64,000 bases of DNA, taken from positions 131,644 to 195,643 of the forward strand of contig CAMYJD010000004.1 in the NCBI GenBank assembly GCA_947258655.1. The letters are read 5' to 3'. The first letter of the stretch is position 1; the number at the start of each line of letters is the position of its first letter. This DNA is from an uncultured Gammaproteobacteria bacterium. GTDB taxonomy: Bacteria > Pseudomonadota > Gammaproteobacteria > JAADHQ01. The notes under the pieces are model-generated. The model was not told the origin of the DNA. It made no database searches and saw only the letters and a program-made list of their open reading frames with translations. Shown here one piece after another: positions 56,964 through 63,814 of this stretch. Both the position numbers and the translations under genes were made by a program.

Positions 56964-57749
56964 TTATATATTGTTTAGTTCCAATAATGCTTGATGCGCA
57001 GTTTGATAGCGCTTGTTGATATCAACGGATAATATCCTGTTAATAAATTCATGGTAATGACAATCGATTCCGCGCAGTTCCAATGCAGGTGGATTGGCAG
57101 CCAGCGGTAACATGTCTCTGGTAGTGTTAGCATTGTTTCTGCGCATTCCGGTCAGCATCTCATAGAATAGTAGTCCTACCTGATACAGGTCACTTTGCTG
57201 TGTCCATTGCAGACCCTGTGCCTGTTCCGGTGACAGGTAGGCATGTTTGCCGATCCAGGTGTGGGCGGCGTCATTGTATTGCTGAGGTATACAGGCGCAG
57301 CCGAAATCAATCAGGTATACCTGCCCCTGTTTCGATAAGATTATATTGTCTGGGGAAATATCCGAGTGAATGAGCCTGCCGTCACGATCATGCAGGTTAG
57401 ACAGGATGGTCAGGAGTTGACGGATTATGTCCACGCTTTGTGATAGTGATACCGTACCTGCCTTTAATATTTTATCCAGATTGGTACCTTTTATATATTC
57501 ATAGGCGAAATATGGACGCTTAATGTCCACCCGGCTTTTTATCAACGCAAGTGTGTTGCTAGTTTGCAGTGACTGCAGGATTTCTACCTCGCTAATGAAA
57601 CGTGACTTCAATGCCGGTATGTTGCAGTATTCTGGCTTAAGGCTTTTTACGATCAAAGATTTCCTCCCCTTGACAAGAAACAGCTGACAAATACTGCCGT
57701 TAAAAAAAGGGGAAATGTCGACAAGCCCGCTGTACTTTAAATGTCCCAA
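56964..57749 (-). CDS. Ser/Thr protein kinase, non-RD type
   Basis: Soluble Hanks-type kinase. I place the start at TTG 57749 because CAGGAG lies just before it; an ATG at 57791 gives 275 residues and a 55-base overlap. Numbering from that ATG: K49 (LIVKSLK), alpha-C Glu near 70, catalytic loop HSDISPDN (D144) and DFG at 162-164, followed by a Glu of the APE-like region (LSPEQAQG). The glycine-rich loop is degenerate (SPFFNGSICQLFLV), and Ser replaces the Arg of HRD. It is translationally coupled to the Lnt-like gene (13-base overlap). There is no membrane or sensor domain, so its input must come from partners. Confidence 0.85.
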   Translation of the reverse strand: MGHLKYSGLVDISPFFNGSICQLFLVKGRKSLIVKSLKPEYCNIPALKSRFISEVEILQSLQTSNTLALIKSRVDIKRPYFAYEYIKGTNLDKILKAGTVSLSQSVDIIRQLLTILSNLHDRDGRLIHSDISPDNIILSKQGQVYLIDFGCACIPQQYNDAAHTWIGKHAYLSPEQAQGLQWTQQSDLYQVGLLFYEMLTGMRRNNANTTRDMLPLAANPPALELRGIDCHYHEFINRILSVDINKRYQTAHQALLELNNI

Positions 57750-59743
57750 GGCCTGCTCCTGGCAGATAGTGTTAGTGTTTTTCCTGTCCATTTGTGCAGG
57801 AAAGCCTTCGTTTTTACCGAAAGTATTTGGCCGTAATAAGGTGAAAAAAAGATAACACCATTGTCTGTTATATCGGTTATAACAACCGTTTCACCTGTCT
57901 CCAATAGTACAATGCAGGGTGTCTTTATGTGTGTGTGAATGGCAGCGTGGGTGTCTGAGAAATTCTCGCTGGTTGAATCATACCCGAACCTGTCCGTAAT
58001 AGAACTTATATCTATGGCACTTTTGGTAGCGTTACTATCAACGATGATACTGCTTAATTCAGCCCTGATATGCGTCAGATTGACATCATTACCAAGGTCC
58101 CTGAGGAGGTAGGTGATTGCAGAGAGTAGGCTATCGATGGGGGTGTCAACCTTAAGCTGTTGGTACGGTAAGGTATCGTTAATATGTCCGTGCTGAAAAT
58201 TGACAAAGGTATCGGGTAGGTTGTTGCCACTACTGATTTGATAGATATGGCGCATATAATAGTGCTGAAAAACCAGAGCACTGCCCAGCAAGGTAATTGC
58301 ACTCATAATACCTCCGACTCTGAAAGCTTGTCCGGATCGCTGAAAGTGGCATGAGCGTGCACAGCTAGCAAGGAAAATAATAACGGCCACTGATGACAGC
58401 ACCCACAATGCTATCTGTATGTTGCGAAAATGCCTGACAAAAAAAGTCGTAGTATAATTTGCCTGAATACGGGCATGCAAGGTGCCGCTTGTGAACAGAG
58501 CAAGACGTTCCCCGACTCTGCCGTTGGCAGTAATAACTGTCGACGGGCCTGCATTCGCGGCCCGGATAATGGTCTTGCCTGTCTCCACTGCCCTGAGCCT
58601 GGAAAACTGCAGATGTAGATAAGCCAGGATCGATGGTCCGGCATAGGCATCATTGGTGGCCAGAGATATAAAACCTGCGCCAGCAGCAGACAGCATCACA
58701 GCCGGACGTGAAAAAACAGATTCATAACAAATAATGCTGCCGGGACGACCGGGTAATTTATCATGAATACTCCAGTCGTTTTGCCCGTTTGTTTCATCTT
58801 CGATGAAGGGAATCAGGATGTTTTTGTTATATCGATGGAGTACTGTTCCTGATGATGAGAGTGAAAAAACAGAATTATAGGTCTGCCCGGATGCTGACAA
58901 GTCAGGGCTTGCGACCAGTATGGGGATGCCGAATAGCGCGGCCTGTTGACTGATATTGGATTTGTTACGGAACTCGTATTTGCCAATACTGACCTCGGGC
59001 AATATGATCAGTTCGGGTTTAAAACGTTCACTGAAAGCATCTTGTAGAAGGCTTAGGCGCTGATGGGCAAGACTTTCAAGCATATCGTCGGATGCCAATG
59101 CCAGAGTGTTGCGTGGATGAGCATTGGTCTGGACAATGCTAATATCGATAATGTCGCCCTGAGTTTGCGTAGTTCCATTAATTAACGCAGGAAGCAAAAA
59201 CGTTGACGTGATTGCAACCAACGAACTAGCGGGGACCACAATGGACAGTCTTGCATGCTGGCGCTGATGAAGTACAACAATAGTCAGCTGAAATCCTATC
59301 AATAAAATACTGAGCAACTGCTGGCCGCCATATTGGGCTGGCATTAATAATGCCGGTGTAACTGTTAGTGGAATGACCAGTGTCACAGGCAGGTTAAAAT
59401 AGGAGAGCGTTATTTCAATAAATGTCCATAATAAGGGCGCTATCAGGAGTGCGAGTAAATCCCGCCTACTGATGATCAGAAATGTACAAAACAGAAACGT
59501 GGAAAAGAGTAATGAGAAAATGAATACGATCGCGACATAGGCATATATATCATATGTCCAGGTGCCGAAGTAGCTATAGCCTGAAATAATTAGCGCAAAC
59601 ACAAAACCATCCACTGCCACCTGTGTCGGTATATGGCCCTGGCGATTTATTAATAGAGGGACAAGAAAAAAACAGCCAACGAGCGGTATATCGAATGGCG
59701 GTAATGATGCAAGGAATAAAATTGAAGAAAGTACAGGACGCAC
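57737..59743 (-). CDS. Lnt-like nitrilase-family membrane protein with C39-like C-terminal domain
   Basis: A 668-residue protein starting with GTG. Residues 1-200 hold about six membrane helices in the apolipoprotein N-acyltransferase style (LASLPPFDIPLVGCFFLVPLL). The carbon-nitrogen-hydrolase domain (about 205-445) has the full triad: E250 (ILPEVS), K307 (YNKNILIPF) and C339 (ICYES). A further helix near 450-470 and another near 485-505 follow. The last 135 residues (534-668) are not part of Lnt. They resemble a degenerate C39-peptidase-like domain as found on type I secretion ABC transporters: IDSLLSAITYLLRDLG with Ser where Cys would be, PCIVLLETGETVVI and KAFLHKWTGKTL. The housekeeping Lnt is probably elsewhere. 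Fused domain and kinase coupling are unusual. Confidence 0.8.
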   Translation of the reverse strand: MRPVLSSILFLASLPPFDIPLVGCFFLVPLLINRQGHIPTQVAVDGFVFALIISGYSYFGTWTYDIYAYVAIVFIFSLLFSTFLFCTFLIISRRDLLALLIAPLLWTFIEITLSYFNLPVTLVIPLTVTPALLMPAQYGGQQLLSILLIGFQLTIVVLHQRQHARLSIVVPASSLVAITSTFLLPALINGTTQTQGDIIDISIVQTNAHPRNTLALASDDMLESLAHQRLSLLQDAFSERFKPELIILPEVSIGKYEFRNKSNISQQAALFGIPILVASPDLSASGQTYNSVFSLSSSGTVLHRYNKNILIPFIEDETNGQNDWSIHDKLPGRPGSIICYESVFSRPAVMLSAAGAGFISLATNDAYAGPSILAYLHLQFSRLRAVETGKTIIRAANAGPSTVITANGRVGERLALFTSGTLHARIQANYTTTFFVRHFRNIQIALWVLSSVAVIIFLASCARSCHFQRSGQAFRVGGIMSAITLLGSALVFQHYYMRHIYQISSGNNLPDTFVNFQHGHINDTLPYQQLKVDTPIDSLLSAITYLLRDLGNDVNLTHIRAELSSIIVDSNATKSAIDISSITDRFGYDSTSENFSDTHAAIHTHIKTPCIVLLETGETVVITDITDNGVIFFSPYYGQILSVKTKAFLHKWTGKTLTLSARSRPWDI

Positions 59744-59941: not shown

Positions 59942-60220
59942 ATGAAGCGCATCAAGAATACAAGTTTTGTAGGAAAAATCCGACAACGCGGTCAGGGAAT
60001 GTCTGAGTACCTAATCATCGTTGCTCTGATAGCCGTCGCAGCAATTGGTGTGGTAGGCTTTATGGGAGACACGGTAAGTAACCAGATGGCCAGCATGGCA
60101 ATGGAGATTTCCGGCCAGGACGGAGGCAACGCAACCAAAAATGCGCAGACACAAGCCACTGCTGCCGAGAACAAAGCCAAAACCGGCAAGACAATGGCAA
60201 ACTTCTCTTCTGCTAACTAG
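59942..60220 (+). CDS. Flp-like (class III) prepilin
   Basis: A 92-residue prepilin. The basic leader (17 residues, ending RQRG) is followed by G^QGMSEY, the G-xxxx-E-Y cleavage pattern of Flp/class III prepilins with Glu at +5 and Tyr at +6, and a hydrophobic stretch (LIIVALIAVAAIGVVGFMG). The mature tail is polar, Ala/Lys/Gln-rich and lacks Cys. It has a strong AGGAGA ribosome binding site and is the first gene of the plus-strand operon. A large hairpin after it may set a high pilin-to-downstream ratio. No prepilin peptidase, TadA ATPase or secretin gene lies in the window. Confidence 0.85.
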   Translation: MKRIKNTSFVGKIRQRGQGMSEYLIIVALIAVAAIGVVGFMGDTVSNQMASMAMEISGQDGGNATKNAQTQATAAENKAKTGKTMANFSSAN

Positions 60221-60279: not shown

Positions 60280-60322
60280 CAGCAATGGTCAATGCATAGT
60301 ATTGACAGGGAAGGTTTGCGTC

Positions 60323-61531
60323 ATGAAAAAATACGGAACTATACTTTACCATCGCCAAAAAGGGCAGGCGCTGGTGCTTGGAGTATTTCTGGTTCTGACA
60401 ACGGTCATGACGGCGGTTTTGATGTACAACAATGGCCAGACGACTTCCGAAAAGAGCCGTCTGGTTAATGCCGCCGATGCCGCGGCCTACAGTGGTGCAG
60501 TGTTTGTTGCCAGAAACCTCAATTTTCTCGCCTATACCAATCGAGCCATGATAGCCAATCATGTGGCGGTTGGGCACTTTGTCAGTTATGTGTCATGGAT
60601 CAGATATGTTGAGGATTCCATTACAGAACTTGATAAATATACCAGATTTGTCCCGTACGTCGGCCAGGCAGTGGCATATGCCAAGCAAATTATGGAATAT
60701 GTAAAAGAAGGTACAGAAACGGTAGCGCCATGGATTGTGAAAGGGGCAGATTCAATAAACAGGATAATACATATCGCCCAAAATAAAAGTCGCGCAACAA
60801 TAAACGGAGTGATGTCAGTCACCAGTGGCGTGCTCAATGTTAGGATTATGGATAAGGTTGCCAAAACATATGATCCAGCAATTCGAGTTAATTATAAGAA
60901 AGATGTCAATACAACCGGTGGTAAGATAGCCGCTCTTCAGGTGACAACAGACATCGCTAAAATTTTTCAATATGTAAAAGGATATACAGCAAAAAATGAT
61001 AAAGGTCGGCTAAAGAAGATGGTTGAAAGTAGCTATAATGTCTCTAAACCATGGATTGAAGGAAACCGTGGCTGGGGTGTCAATCTGGTGGCATTCAAGC
61101 TGAATAAGGATGGTAGTACCAAACATACTTTGTCAAAGAATAAAACCGATTGGGAAGCCCAGGATACATTGGTCTATAAGTGGTGGACAGTAAAGGGTTG
61201 GAAGAGTACGGTCGTCGCAGAGGGTGATGCCAGTGCAAGCGAATTCGATAGTAAATACAAGGGCATCTATGGTTACCATGGTCTGAGGAAGCAGGGCAAA
61301 GAGTCAGCTCAGATACTGAATGTATCAGCGCTGGCAACGATGCCTGTATCTAGTACACGTTTTATGCAATTAATGGGTATGAAGCCGGGGGCGCAACGCC
61401 TTGCAGCATTATCCCGTGCGGAAGTATTTCACAACAGGCCAGAGAAGGGATTTGTCAAAATTACTAAGGGAGAATATTCGAATCTGTATAACCCGTTCTG
61501 GCAGGTAAGGTTGACCAAGAATCAAATATGA
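60323..61531 (+). CDS. TadG-like pilus-assembly (Tad) protein
   Basis: A 402-residue protein from the ATG at 60323 (GGGAAGG nine bases upstream); a TTG at 60302 is an alternative. The N-terminus has KGQALVLGVFLVLTTVMTAVLMYNNG, the single helix of Tad/TadG-like proteins, then NAADAAAYSGAVFVARNLNFLAY, the conserved start of the exported part. There is no Glu at +5 after G14, so prepilin processing is uncertain. The rest is polar with Trp-rich stretches and no clear VWA MIDAS. Overlaps the next gene by four bases. Confidence 0.78.
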   Translation: MKKYGTILYHRQKGQALVLGVFLVLTTVMTAVLMYNNGQTTSEKSRLVNAADAAAYSGAVFVARNLNFLAYTNRAMIANHVAVGHFVSYVSWIRYVEDSITELDKYTRFVPYVGQAVAYAKQIMEYVKEGTETVAPWIVKGADSINRIIHIAQNKSRATINGVMSVTSGVLNVRIMDKVAKTYDPAIRVNYKKDVNTTGGKIAALQVTTDIAKIFQYVKGYTAKNDKGRLKKMVESSYNVSKPWIEGNRGWGVNLVAFKLNKDGSTKHTLSKNKTDWEAQDTLVYKWWTVKGWKSTVVAEGDASASEFDSKYKGIYGYHGLRKQGKESAQILNVSALATMPVSSTRFMQLMGMKPGAQRLAALSRAEVFHNRPEKGFVKITKGEYSNLYNPFWQVRLTKNQI

Positions 61532-62418
61532 TGGAGTTCAATCACGTTATTTTATGGATCAGCAAGTTATCTGTACTGACTGTTTTATTTTCATCCACAC
61601 AGATACTTGCGAAGACCTGTCCAGGTAATGATATGCCGAAAACAGTTCAAGCGGTCTACGTAAAATACAAGATCACTGACGAGGTATATATAAAACTTAA
61701 TAAACAGTGGGGGGCGCCTTCCAATGTTGTGGGGGATGAATTGAAAGAGCTCATTCTGTGGAAGAATTACCGATGGAAACGCAGATTCGGAAAATACTGG
61801 AGCACCGATGATGAGAAGGAGGTAAAATATCAGGATGCGCATTTAAAGAAATGGGAGAGTATTGAACTACGGCAATCTAAAGGTGTAGAAGTACCTATGG
61901 ATGAAATAGATAAGCTGGCGATTGAGTATATGAACCATAGGCCAGAACAAAAAGTCTACGAATATGACTGGATTGATGTCGATACCCCTGAGTATTCATT
62001 GTACTACAACAGGTCTAATGAAAAAGGCTATGGTGTGTTGGGCCGTCAATTAACTAAATCAGATAGGAAGCGTCTGGACAAACGGACCAGGTCACAGCTT
62101 GATAACTGGTTGGGCTCAAATTATAAAGATACAAAAAAGATATTAGGAATCGAAAAAATATCAAAAAGGAAATCAAAAATACTGGGATATGACGTGGTCT
62201 GCGAGACGATCAGGACCAGTGTTAAGGACTTTTCGCGAACTAATGATCAGATAGAATTCTGTAAGGCTAATATCTCCGGTTTCGAAGTAGATCTGTATAG
62301 TAAGGCAGGAAAAACAGGGCAACAACATATCATGCAAGCTGTAGAGGTAAATACAGCGTACAGCGTAAATAAAGATATATTTTGTGCTCCAGGCTATGTG
62401 AAGTTGAGAACACCCTGA
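61528..62418 (+). CDS. Secreted protein of unknown function in pilin operon
   Basis: A 296-residue exported protein with signal peptide (hydrophobic LSVLTVLFSSTQ, cleavage near ILA-KT). The mature part is highly charged and Lys/Tyr/Trp-rich, with Cys in TCPGND, VVCET, EFCKAN and DIFCAP, probably forming two disulfides. The last 75 residues recur in the shortened ORF at 62594. Its start overlaps the TadG-like stop. No family recognised. Confidence 0.72.
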   Translation: MMEFNHVILWISKLSVLTVLFSSTQILAKTCPGNDMPKTVQAVYVKYKITDEVYIKLNKQWGAPSNVVGDELKELILWKNYRWKRRFGKYWSTDDEKEVKYQDAHLKKWESIELRQSKGVEVPMDEIDKLAIEYMNHRPEQKVYEYDWIDVDTPEYSLYYNRSNEKGYGVLGRQLTKSDRKRLDKRTRSQLDNWLGSNYKDTKKILGIEKISKRKSKILGYDVVCETIRTSVKDFSRTNDQIEFCKANISGFEVDLYSKAGKTGQQHIMQAVEVNTAYSVNKDIFCAPGYVKLRTP

Positions 62419-62593: not shown

Positions 62594-62860
62594 TTGATAA
62601 TTTACTGCAGAAAAACCAGGACGTCGGGTAATGATGTCACGTATGAAATGGTCGAGACAAGATTATATGGTGCCCTGAGAAAATATGGACAGATGAAGGT
62701 ATGTATGGAAAATATAACTGGTACCGAAGCAAATTTGTATGGAGGGATGGGCAAACTCGGAGAGCGCTCTATTGTCCAGGCTATAGAGGTCAATTCGGCG
62801 TGTCCAGTTAGAAGAGATATCTTTTGTTACCCGCACTATGTAAAAACGGGGTTATCCTGA
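62594..62860 (+). pseudogene. Shortened paralogue of the upstream secreted protein
   Basis: An 88-codon frame with similarity to the last 75 residues of the preceding gene: ENITGTEANLYGGMGKLGERS against KANISGFEVDLYSKAGKTGQQ, and AIEVNSACPVRRDIFC against AVEVNTAYSVNKDIFC. It lacks a signal peptide and the N-terminal two thirds. The start would be TTG at 62594 without a clear ribosome binding site. The 175 bases before it hold no coding remnant. It is either a gene fragment left by tandem duplication or a truncated but translated domain. Confidence 0.65.
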
Positions 62861-62872
62861 TGGAGGCTGCAA

Positions 62873-63814
62873 ATGGATTTTGCTTATAAACATAAACGAC
62901 TATCCAGACGCAAAGCGTCAGGTACCGCTACCACTGAGTTCCTGGTGTCACTGGCATTCTTCGTACCACTCTTTGTTACTGTGCCTGTTATTGGGAAATA
63001 TATATCGTTCAAGCAGAAAAACATAGAATCAAACAGATATGCTGTCTGGGAAAGAACGGTCTGGGCAGATGAACAAGGACGTTGGAACGATAACGAAAAT
63101 ACCAAATCGGATGATGGCATAGCCAGGGAAGTCGACAGGCGTCTATATGGTAGCCAGATTCAGGGATTGTCCAGTTCTAGTATTACCGACAATAACATGT
63201 GGTCAGATAGAAATAGTGAAAGAATGCTTGCCCTGGCAACCAAGGGCAAACATCGAATAACTGTTTCCCTGAATGCCGATGTATCACCAGTAAAAGATCA
63301 CTTTACGGATAATCTGGCCTATAAAGGTATTCCTTATATTGGCGACGGGATGAGTAAGATCACCGAAGTGGTCAATAGTACCCTGGGTAATTTTGTATCG
63401 GATTGCAAGGATATACCAGGTGTCGATTTGAAAAAAGGCATGAATCTGGGCTCAAAAACATATGCCTCCATTACTGTCTCGGCAAATGCAAAGAATATAC
63501 TTCCTTCTGTTAACAATGGTGATTCGCAAATAATATTAATTGAGAACGAGAAAGAGCCAAAAACCACGATTGAAGATAAAAAACACTTTACGTTTTCATC
63601 CAGTGGTTCAATATTGTCAAATGCATGGACTGCCCCAACAGAAGCCATCTTCAACGAACGGGTTGGTAAGCTGGTTGTTGACGAATCAGTACGATGTATT
63701 TCCTCGCCGGCACGTCTGTTATCGCTATTTCCGATATACAAGGAAGGGAACGATGCAAAGAATGTTGTATCGGCCGAAAAGAGTACAATATTGCTTGAGA
63801 CATATAAAAAATGA
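62873..63814 (+). CDS. TadE-like pseudopilin
   Basis: A 313-residue protein with GGAGG six bases before the ATG. Basic leader of 17 residues ending KASG, then G^TATTEF (Glu at +5, Phe at +6) and the helix LVSLAFFVPLFVTVPVIG, the TadE pattern and the same G-xxxx-E spacing as the pilin at 59942. Both cut sites fall after residue 17, suggesting one peptidase handles both. The remaining 260 residues are polar and exported. The stop overlaps the next gene (ATGA). Confidence 0.8.
   Translation: MDFAYKHKRLSRRKASGTATTEFLVSLAFFVPLFVTVPVIGKYISFKQKNIESNRYAVWERTVWADEQGRWNDNENTKSDDGIAREVDRRLYGSQIQGLSSSSITDNNMWSDRNSERMLALATKGKHRITVSLNADVSPVKDHFTDNLAYKGIPYIGDGMSKITEVVNSTLGNFVSDCKDIPGVDLKKGMNLGSKTYASITVSANAKNILPSVNNGDSQIILIENEKEPKTTIEDKKHFTFSSSGSILSNAWTAPTEAIFNERVGKLVVDESVRCISSPARLLSLFPIYKEGNDAKNVVSAEKSTILLETYKK

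Follow-up and report, generated by a model that had tools for sequence, protein, structure and literature searches.

Which process is served by an enzyme that combines the fold of an apolipoprotein N-acyltransferase (Lnt) with a domain related to C39 peptidases, and what would such an enzyme acylate? These questions are raised by a gene at positions 57737-59743 (minus strand) of the stretch of DNA analysed here (“the window”: 64,000 nucleotides of contig CAMYJD010000004.1 from an uncultured gammaproteobacterium). The preliminary description of the window gave these coordinates correctly but not the strand. The gene starts with a GTG codon at 59743 and encodes a protein of 668 amino acids, for which the computed architecture consists of an LNT_N membrane domain (residues 6-150, 59294-59728, minus strand; Pfam PF20154, 6.4e-7), a nitrilase-type (CN_hydrolase) acyltransferase domain (residues 228-432, 58448-59062, minus strand; PF00795, 5e-19) and, C-terminally, a degenerate C39-like domain (ca. 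residues 532-662, 57758-58150, minus strand), the last being delineated by Pfam profile, predicted fold and alignment. The protein passes the NCBIfam cut-off for lnt (TIGR00546; 152 bits, cut-off 132.9) and its residues 537-662 match Pfam Peptidase_C39 above the cut-off (4e-6; 27.1 bits, cut-off 22). Since the same architecture occurs in 12 genomes of six families, at 21-59% identity, it is neither due to chance nor an assembly artefact. Specifically, a chance C39 match was ruled out because the profile of the domain retrieves C39-type ABC transporters elsewhere and the predicted fold agrees, and a chimera of lnt and a transporter gene formed during assembly was ruled out because the full-length architecture is present again in other genomes.

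The fusion was searched for in 94 relatives and then in 369 gammaproteobacterial genomes. The domain-architecture search that the preliminary description had proposed shows that the full-length combination recurs in 12 of these 369 genomes, which represent six family-level groups (21-59% identity to the window protein). A profile of the C-terminal domain, built from 11 fusions, retrieves the same 12 genomes; the copy of G260 is divided between two contigs. An even, thin draw of 398 genomes from the whole phylum yielded only the fusion of the window's own genome and a C39-like domain in G382. The latter (G382:C38, L204), the strongest non-fusion match in this draw, lies in a protein encoded beside an RTX-repeat protein. 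A scan of contigs for relatives produced Lnt matches only, all of which stop before the C39-like region. No plasmid copies of the fusion were found in the search. In a quick tree, in which some rows have an odd composition and one branch is long, the fusions form one deep clade (100% SH-aLRT) separate from 40 other Lnt sequences, which rules out that they are recent duplicates of a resident lnt. At least nine of the 12 fusion genomes also contain a separate, full ordinary lnt, and G260 has a partial match to ordinary lnt at a contig end; a separate lnt was not found in G069, nor in G209 (87% complete).

The involvement of the fusion in the system of a Tad/Flp pilus, a bacterial adhesion pilus, is supported by computed gene linkage and co-occurrence. 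Divergent from the fusion gene lies a Flp pilin gene (59942-60220, plus strand), which was identified by its GQGMSEYLIIVALI motif, a Flp_Fap match (3e-4) under the Pfam cut-off and synteny. It is followed on the plus strand by a TadG-like gene (60302-61531; Pfam Tad, 1.5e-7, and co-occurrence), a gene for an exported protein that is conserved in this type of locus and belongs to no known family (61528-62418; synteny) and a TadE-like gene (62873-63814), assigned by its position and N terminus as it has no Pfam match. Past the window (in L113) the locus of this genome (G000) encodes RcpC, a secretin, an FHA-TadA ATPase, TadB, TadC, a DUF192 protein, an FHA protein and a TadD-type product, i.e., a TPR lipoprotein. 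Two uncharacterised exported proteins are encoded in the G000 locus as a whole. The Flp pilin, RcpC, secretin, TadA, TadB, TadC, TadE/G and TadD genes of other Tad/Flp loci are thus all present. Beyond these, the locus includes genes for the Lnt/C39 fusion and a Ser/Thr kinase, its TadA ATPase bears an FHA domain, and it also encodes a second FHA protein and the DUF192 protein. The kinase gene (56964-57791, minus strand; Pkinase, 8e-29) overlaps the 3' end of the fusion gene and is, by synteny, its conserved partner.

This arrangement is not restricted to the window. All 12 fusions adjoin Tad genes, and the kinase gene then follows in all 11 cases that can be read, the contig of G260 stopping before the kinase position. 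In nearly all other members the fusion-kinase pair is situated at the Flp gene; in G069 the fusion, kinase and TadG-like genes follow each other on one strand, and in G234 the fusion adjoins a different Tad-locus gene. The TadG-like subfamily, counted from near full-length profile matches or strong matches at contig ends, is present in 14 of the 369 genomes, and all 12 fusion genomes are among these. The naive probability of this co-occurrence, which ignores relatedness, is about 8e-21. Conserved linkage together with co-occurrence, as would characterise an accessory gene of a Tad/Flp system, was therefore found. In two genomes (G258:C28 and G276:C7; L198 and L199) the same type of Tad locus occurs without an adjoining fusion or kinase and, consequently, the module is accessory and not required for such a pilus. 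An ABC transporter gene, expected for type I secretion, was not found in the annotated Tad locus.

FHA domains are located N-terminally on the Tad ATPase and on a second Tad-locus protein (L113:13468-15171 and L113:17248-18885). Together with the kinase they suggest, from their sequences, that the same Tad pilus may be under phospho-control, possibly by a phospho-threonine switch. The FHA-TadA combination also occurs without an adjoining kinase in G276.

What would an acyltransferase do in such a system? The preliminary description considered the nitrilase triad E250-K307-C339 to be intact, and an alignment with E. coli Lnt indeed maps E267, K335 and C387 to exactly these residues (58994-58996, 58823-58825 and 58727-58729, respectively, minus strand). 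For the ACYLTRANSFERASE part, a full-length AlphaFold2 model based on a 12-row alignment (pLDDT 84, pTM 0.86) has Lnt structures as its top matches, with a TM-score of up to 0.79 by target. In a comparison with 114 other Lnts, the residues at E. coli positions E267, E343, C387 and E389 were found in all 12 fusions and that at K335 in 11, the exception being G069, where Q replaces the catalytic lysine. With this one substitution, the fusions possess the domains (LNT_N and CN_hydrolase), the E-K-C triad and the E343/E389 residues of the Lnt fold family, and in these respects resemble E. coli Lnt (5n6h).

In contrast to Lnt, all 12 fusions lack the aromatic residue at W237, P346, F358 and ca. 20 residues of the 345-365 arm. 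The spacing between E343 and C387 is 23-24 residues vs. 41-71 in the 114 other Lnts, and position W415 is occupied by Y or F, while 113 of the 114 have W. In Lnt, W237 and F358 are reported to be required only for the second step, in which the apolipoprotein receives the acyl chain, whereas W237, P346, E343 and W415 have been proposed to frame the opening through which it enters (PMC6971011). The hallmarks of a functional apolipoprotein N-acyltransferase (the 345-365 arm, W237 and W415) are therefore missing from the whole family. Since the residues of the first step are kept and those of apolipoprotein acceptance are lost, the loading side of the Lnt half looks intact and the acceptor side rebuilt. 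The earlier expectation that catalysis is likely thus holds, as judged from these residues, for the acyl-enzyme step but not for apolipoprotein acceptance. For the same reason, the fusion would probably fail in the proposed complementation of lnt, a result that would not mean that the enzyme is inactive.

It could still be argued that the fusion is a conventional lipoprotein N-acyltransferase, acting on the N-terminal S-diacylglyceryl cysteine of TadD or a few other lipoproteins, with a C39-like domain that only sharpens specificity. A lipobox is found in the TadD-like lipoprotein of G000, G003 and G057, the sole product of the locus in which we observed one, and the score of the window protein above the lnt equivalog cut-off fits this explanation as well. 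However, several distant members of the family score below that cut-off, the parts that accept apolipoproteins are gone from every member, and most fusion genomes already have a separate lnt. We therefore consider this explanation unlikely, though not negligible.

The other component of the fusion is the C-terminal domain. The preliminary description held that the last 135 residues resemble C39-like domains that bind but do not cut substrates, and regarded an unrelated fold or disorder as evidence to the contrary. Neither was found. A model of the isolated domain (residues 503-668; 11-row alignment) has a pLDDT of 78, with a core of 91-95 and values <50 in short stretches only, and its fold matches the C39 peptidases 6mpz (VIA Z 14.9, 2.5 A over 125 residues) and ComA (peptidase domain, 3k8u; Z 14.2) and the C39-like domain of HlyB (3zua; Z 11.9). 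In an alignment of 11 family members with transporter domains, the Cys-His-Asp triad of C39 peptidases was not recovered: the Cys is present in none, the His in one and the Asp in two. With no Cys in the nucleophile column and the other two residues so rare, proteolysis is, on these sequence data, very unlikely. The domain thus has the fold of C39 peptidases and a sequence relation to them without the catalytic Cys, as is the case for the C39-like domains of type I secretion ABC transporters. After the 12 fusion genomes, its profile next retrieves, more weakly, mostly proteins of ~700-750 amino acids with ABC-transporter motifs; most of these transporter matches are themselves degenerate (DTGLACL instead of DCGxACL), while active-type C39 sequences score lower. 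Hence, the nearest gammaproteobacterial relatives are mostly non-cutting domains of type I transporters, in agreement with what had been proposed.

One partner that had been suggested on the basis of this resemblance, a leader peptide of type I secretion, is not supported. With the Pfam profile, a second C39 domain was found neither in G000 nor in six other fusion genomes, the conserved neighbouring genes are Tad genes and a kinase, and the predicted location of the domain is the periplasm. In type I systems such domains are N-terminal on an ABC transporter, whereas here the domain is C-terminal on an acyltransferase. Of the earlier reading as a whole, the Lnt-family fold, the intact triad and the degenerate C39-like domain stand, but the type I leader is not supported.

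The topology was predicted by applying the positive-inside rule to a hydropathy analysis. In ordinary Lnt, a single membrane helix follows the nitrilase domain. The fusion has a helix in this position (residues 439-463, 58355-58429, minus strand; hydropathy and model) and an extra, last membrane helix (residues 476-505, 58229-58318, minus strand; hydropathy and model), and in most members a short basic loop connects the two (e.g., RAQRRKGGRRVSAAR in L087). If the nitrilase domain faces the periplasm, as that of Lnt does, the two helices and their basic loop predict that the C39-like domain lies on the same side of the membrane, next to the acyltransferase domain, whereas its counterparts on transporters are cytoplasmic. 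There it might, rather than recruit a substrate, be a structural or regulatory part that touches the Tad apparatus or detects a signal. Its sequence has diverged rapidly (19-58% identity within the family), with few invariant positions, and a C39 fold alone does not imply binding. On the other hand, the C39-like domain of HlyB, to which it is related, is known to bind cargo, and we regard a purely structural or regulatory role as rather improbable.

In our preferred reading, to which we give about even confidence, the fusion is a dedicated Lnt-type acyltransferase of the Tad/Flp pilus with a changed acceptor, in which the C39-like domain serves as a docking module. From the fold and the conserved residues, a phospholipid acyl chain would first be loaded onto C339 on the periplasmic side of the inner membrane, E250, K307 and E315 acting as they do in Lnt. 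The chain would then go not to bulk apolipoproteins but to a different acceptor, since the elements with which Lnt admits and holds apolipoproteins are missing. The C39-like domain, kept periplasmic by the extra membrane helix, would dock this acceptor in the way that C39-like domains hold cargo without cutting it; such a protease-derived, non-cutting domain thus probably holds a protein of the pilus system for lipidation. Candidate acceptors encoded at the Tad locus are the TadD-like lipoprotein, the pilins and the exported proteins. A more specific version, in which the Flp pilin, TadE/TadG-type minor subunits or a co-exported surface protein is lipidated by this pilus-dedicated enzyme with its retired protease domain, we consider a long shot. 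If true, the proteins concerned would form a new class of acylated surface proteins that do not follow the Cys-lipobox route.

The nearest working precedent, by analogy, is AatD of the Aat system, an Lnt homologue that is encoded on a virulence plasmid. It attaches an acyl chain to the glycine at the N terminus of a secreted protein (Aap/CexE; PMC7943197). It showed that Lnt paralogues are able to acylate targets besides the lipobox cysteine. By that description, both are Lnt paralogues dedicated to a secretion system in which the catalytic residues are kept, but a C39-like domain or a link to a pilus is not described for AatD in the available text. The same comparison bears on the idea that the acyl-thioester chemistry is retained with a non-protein acceptor or water, so that lipid remodelling or amidase-like hydrolysis would condition the membrane for pilus assembly. 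Conservation is limited to residues of the first half-reaction and amidases do belong to the nitrilase superfamily. However, the enzyme is fused to a periplasmic domain of a protein-binding type, and AatD, which among studied Lnt paralogues with an altered acceptor is the nearest, acts on a protein, which makes this idea distinctly improbable.

In the literature searched, which included only a small part of the subscription journals, no paper describing an Lnt/C39 fusion or a link between Lnt and Tad was found. A second, Tad-linked branch with a built-in putative acceptor-holding domain would suggest that the lipidation of components of secretion systems is a recurring invention, and would offer a testable handle on how enzymes with an Lnt fold choose their acceptor. 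The fusion-free Tad loci of G258 and G276 are natural comparisons for the identity of that acceptor.

Two further observations concern the Tad locus itself. The DUF192 gene (L113:16944-17294) lies between those for TadC and the FHA protein, and is conserved in G003, G057 and G276. An 88-amino-acid open reading frame at 62594-62860 repeats the C-terminal part of the exported protein encoded at 61528-62418 (same cluster) and is apparently a partial tandem duplication; the related genome G003 has one copy of this type of exported protein.
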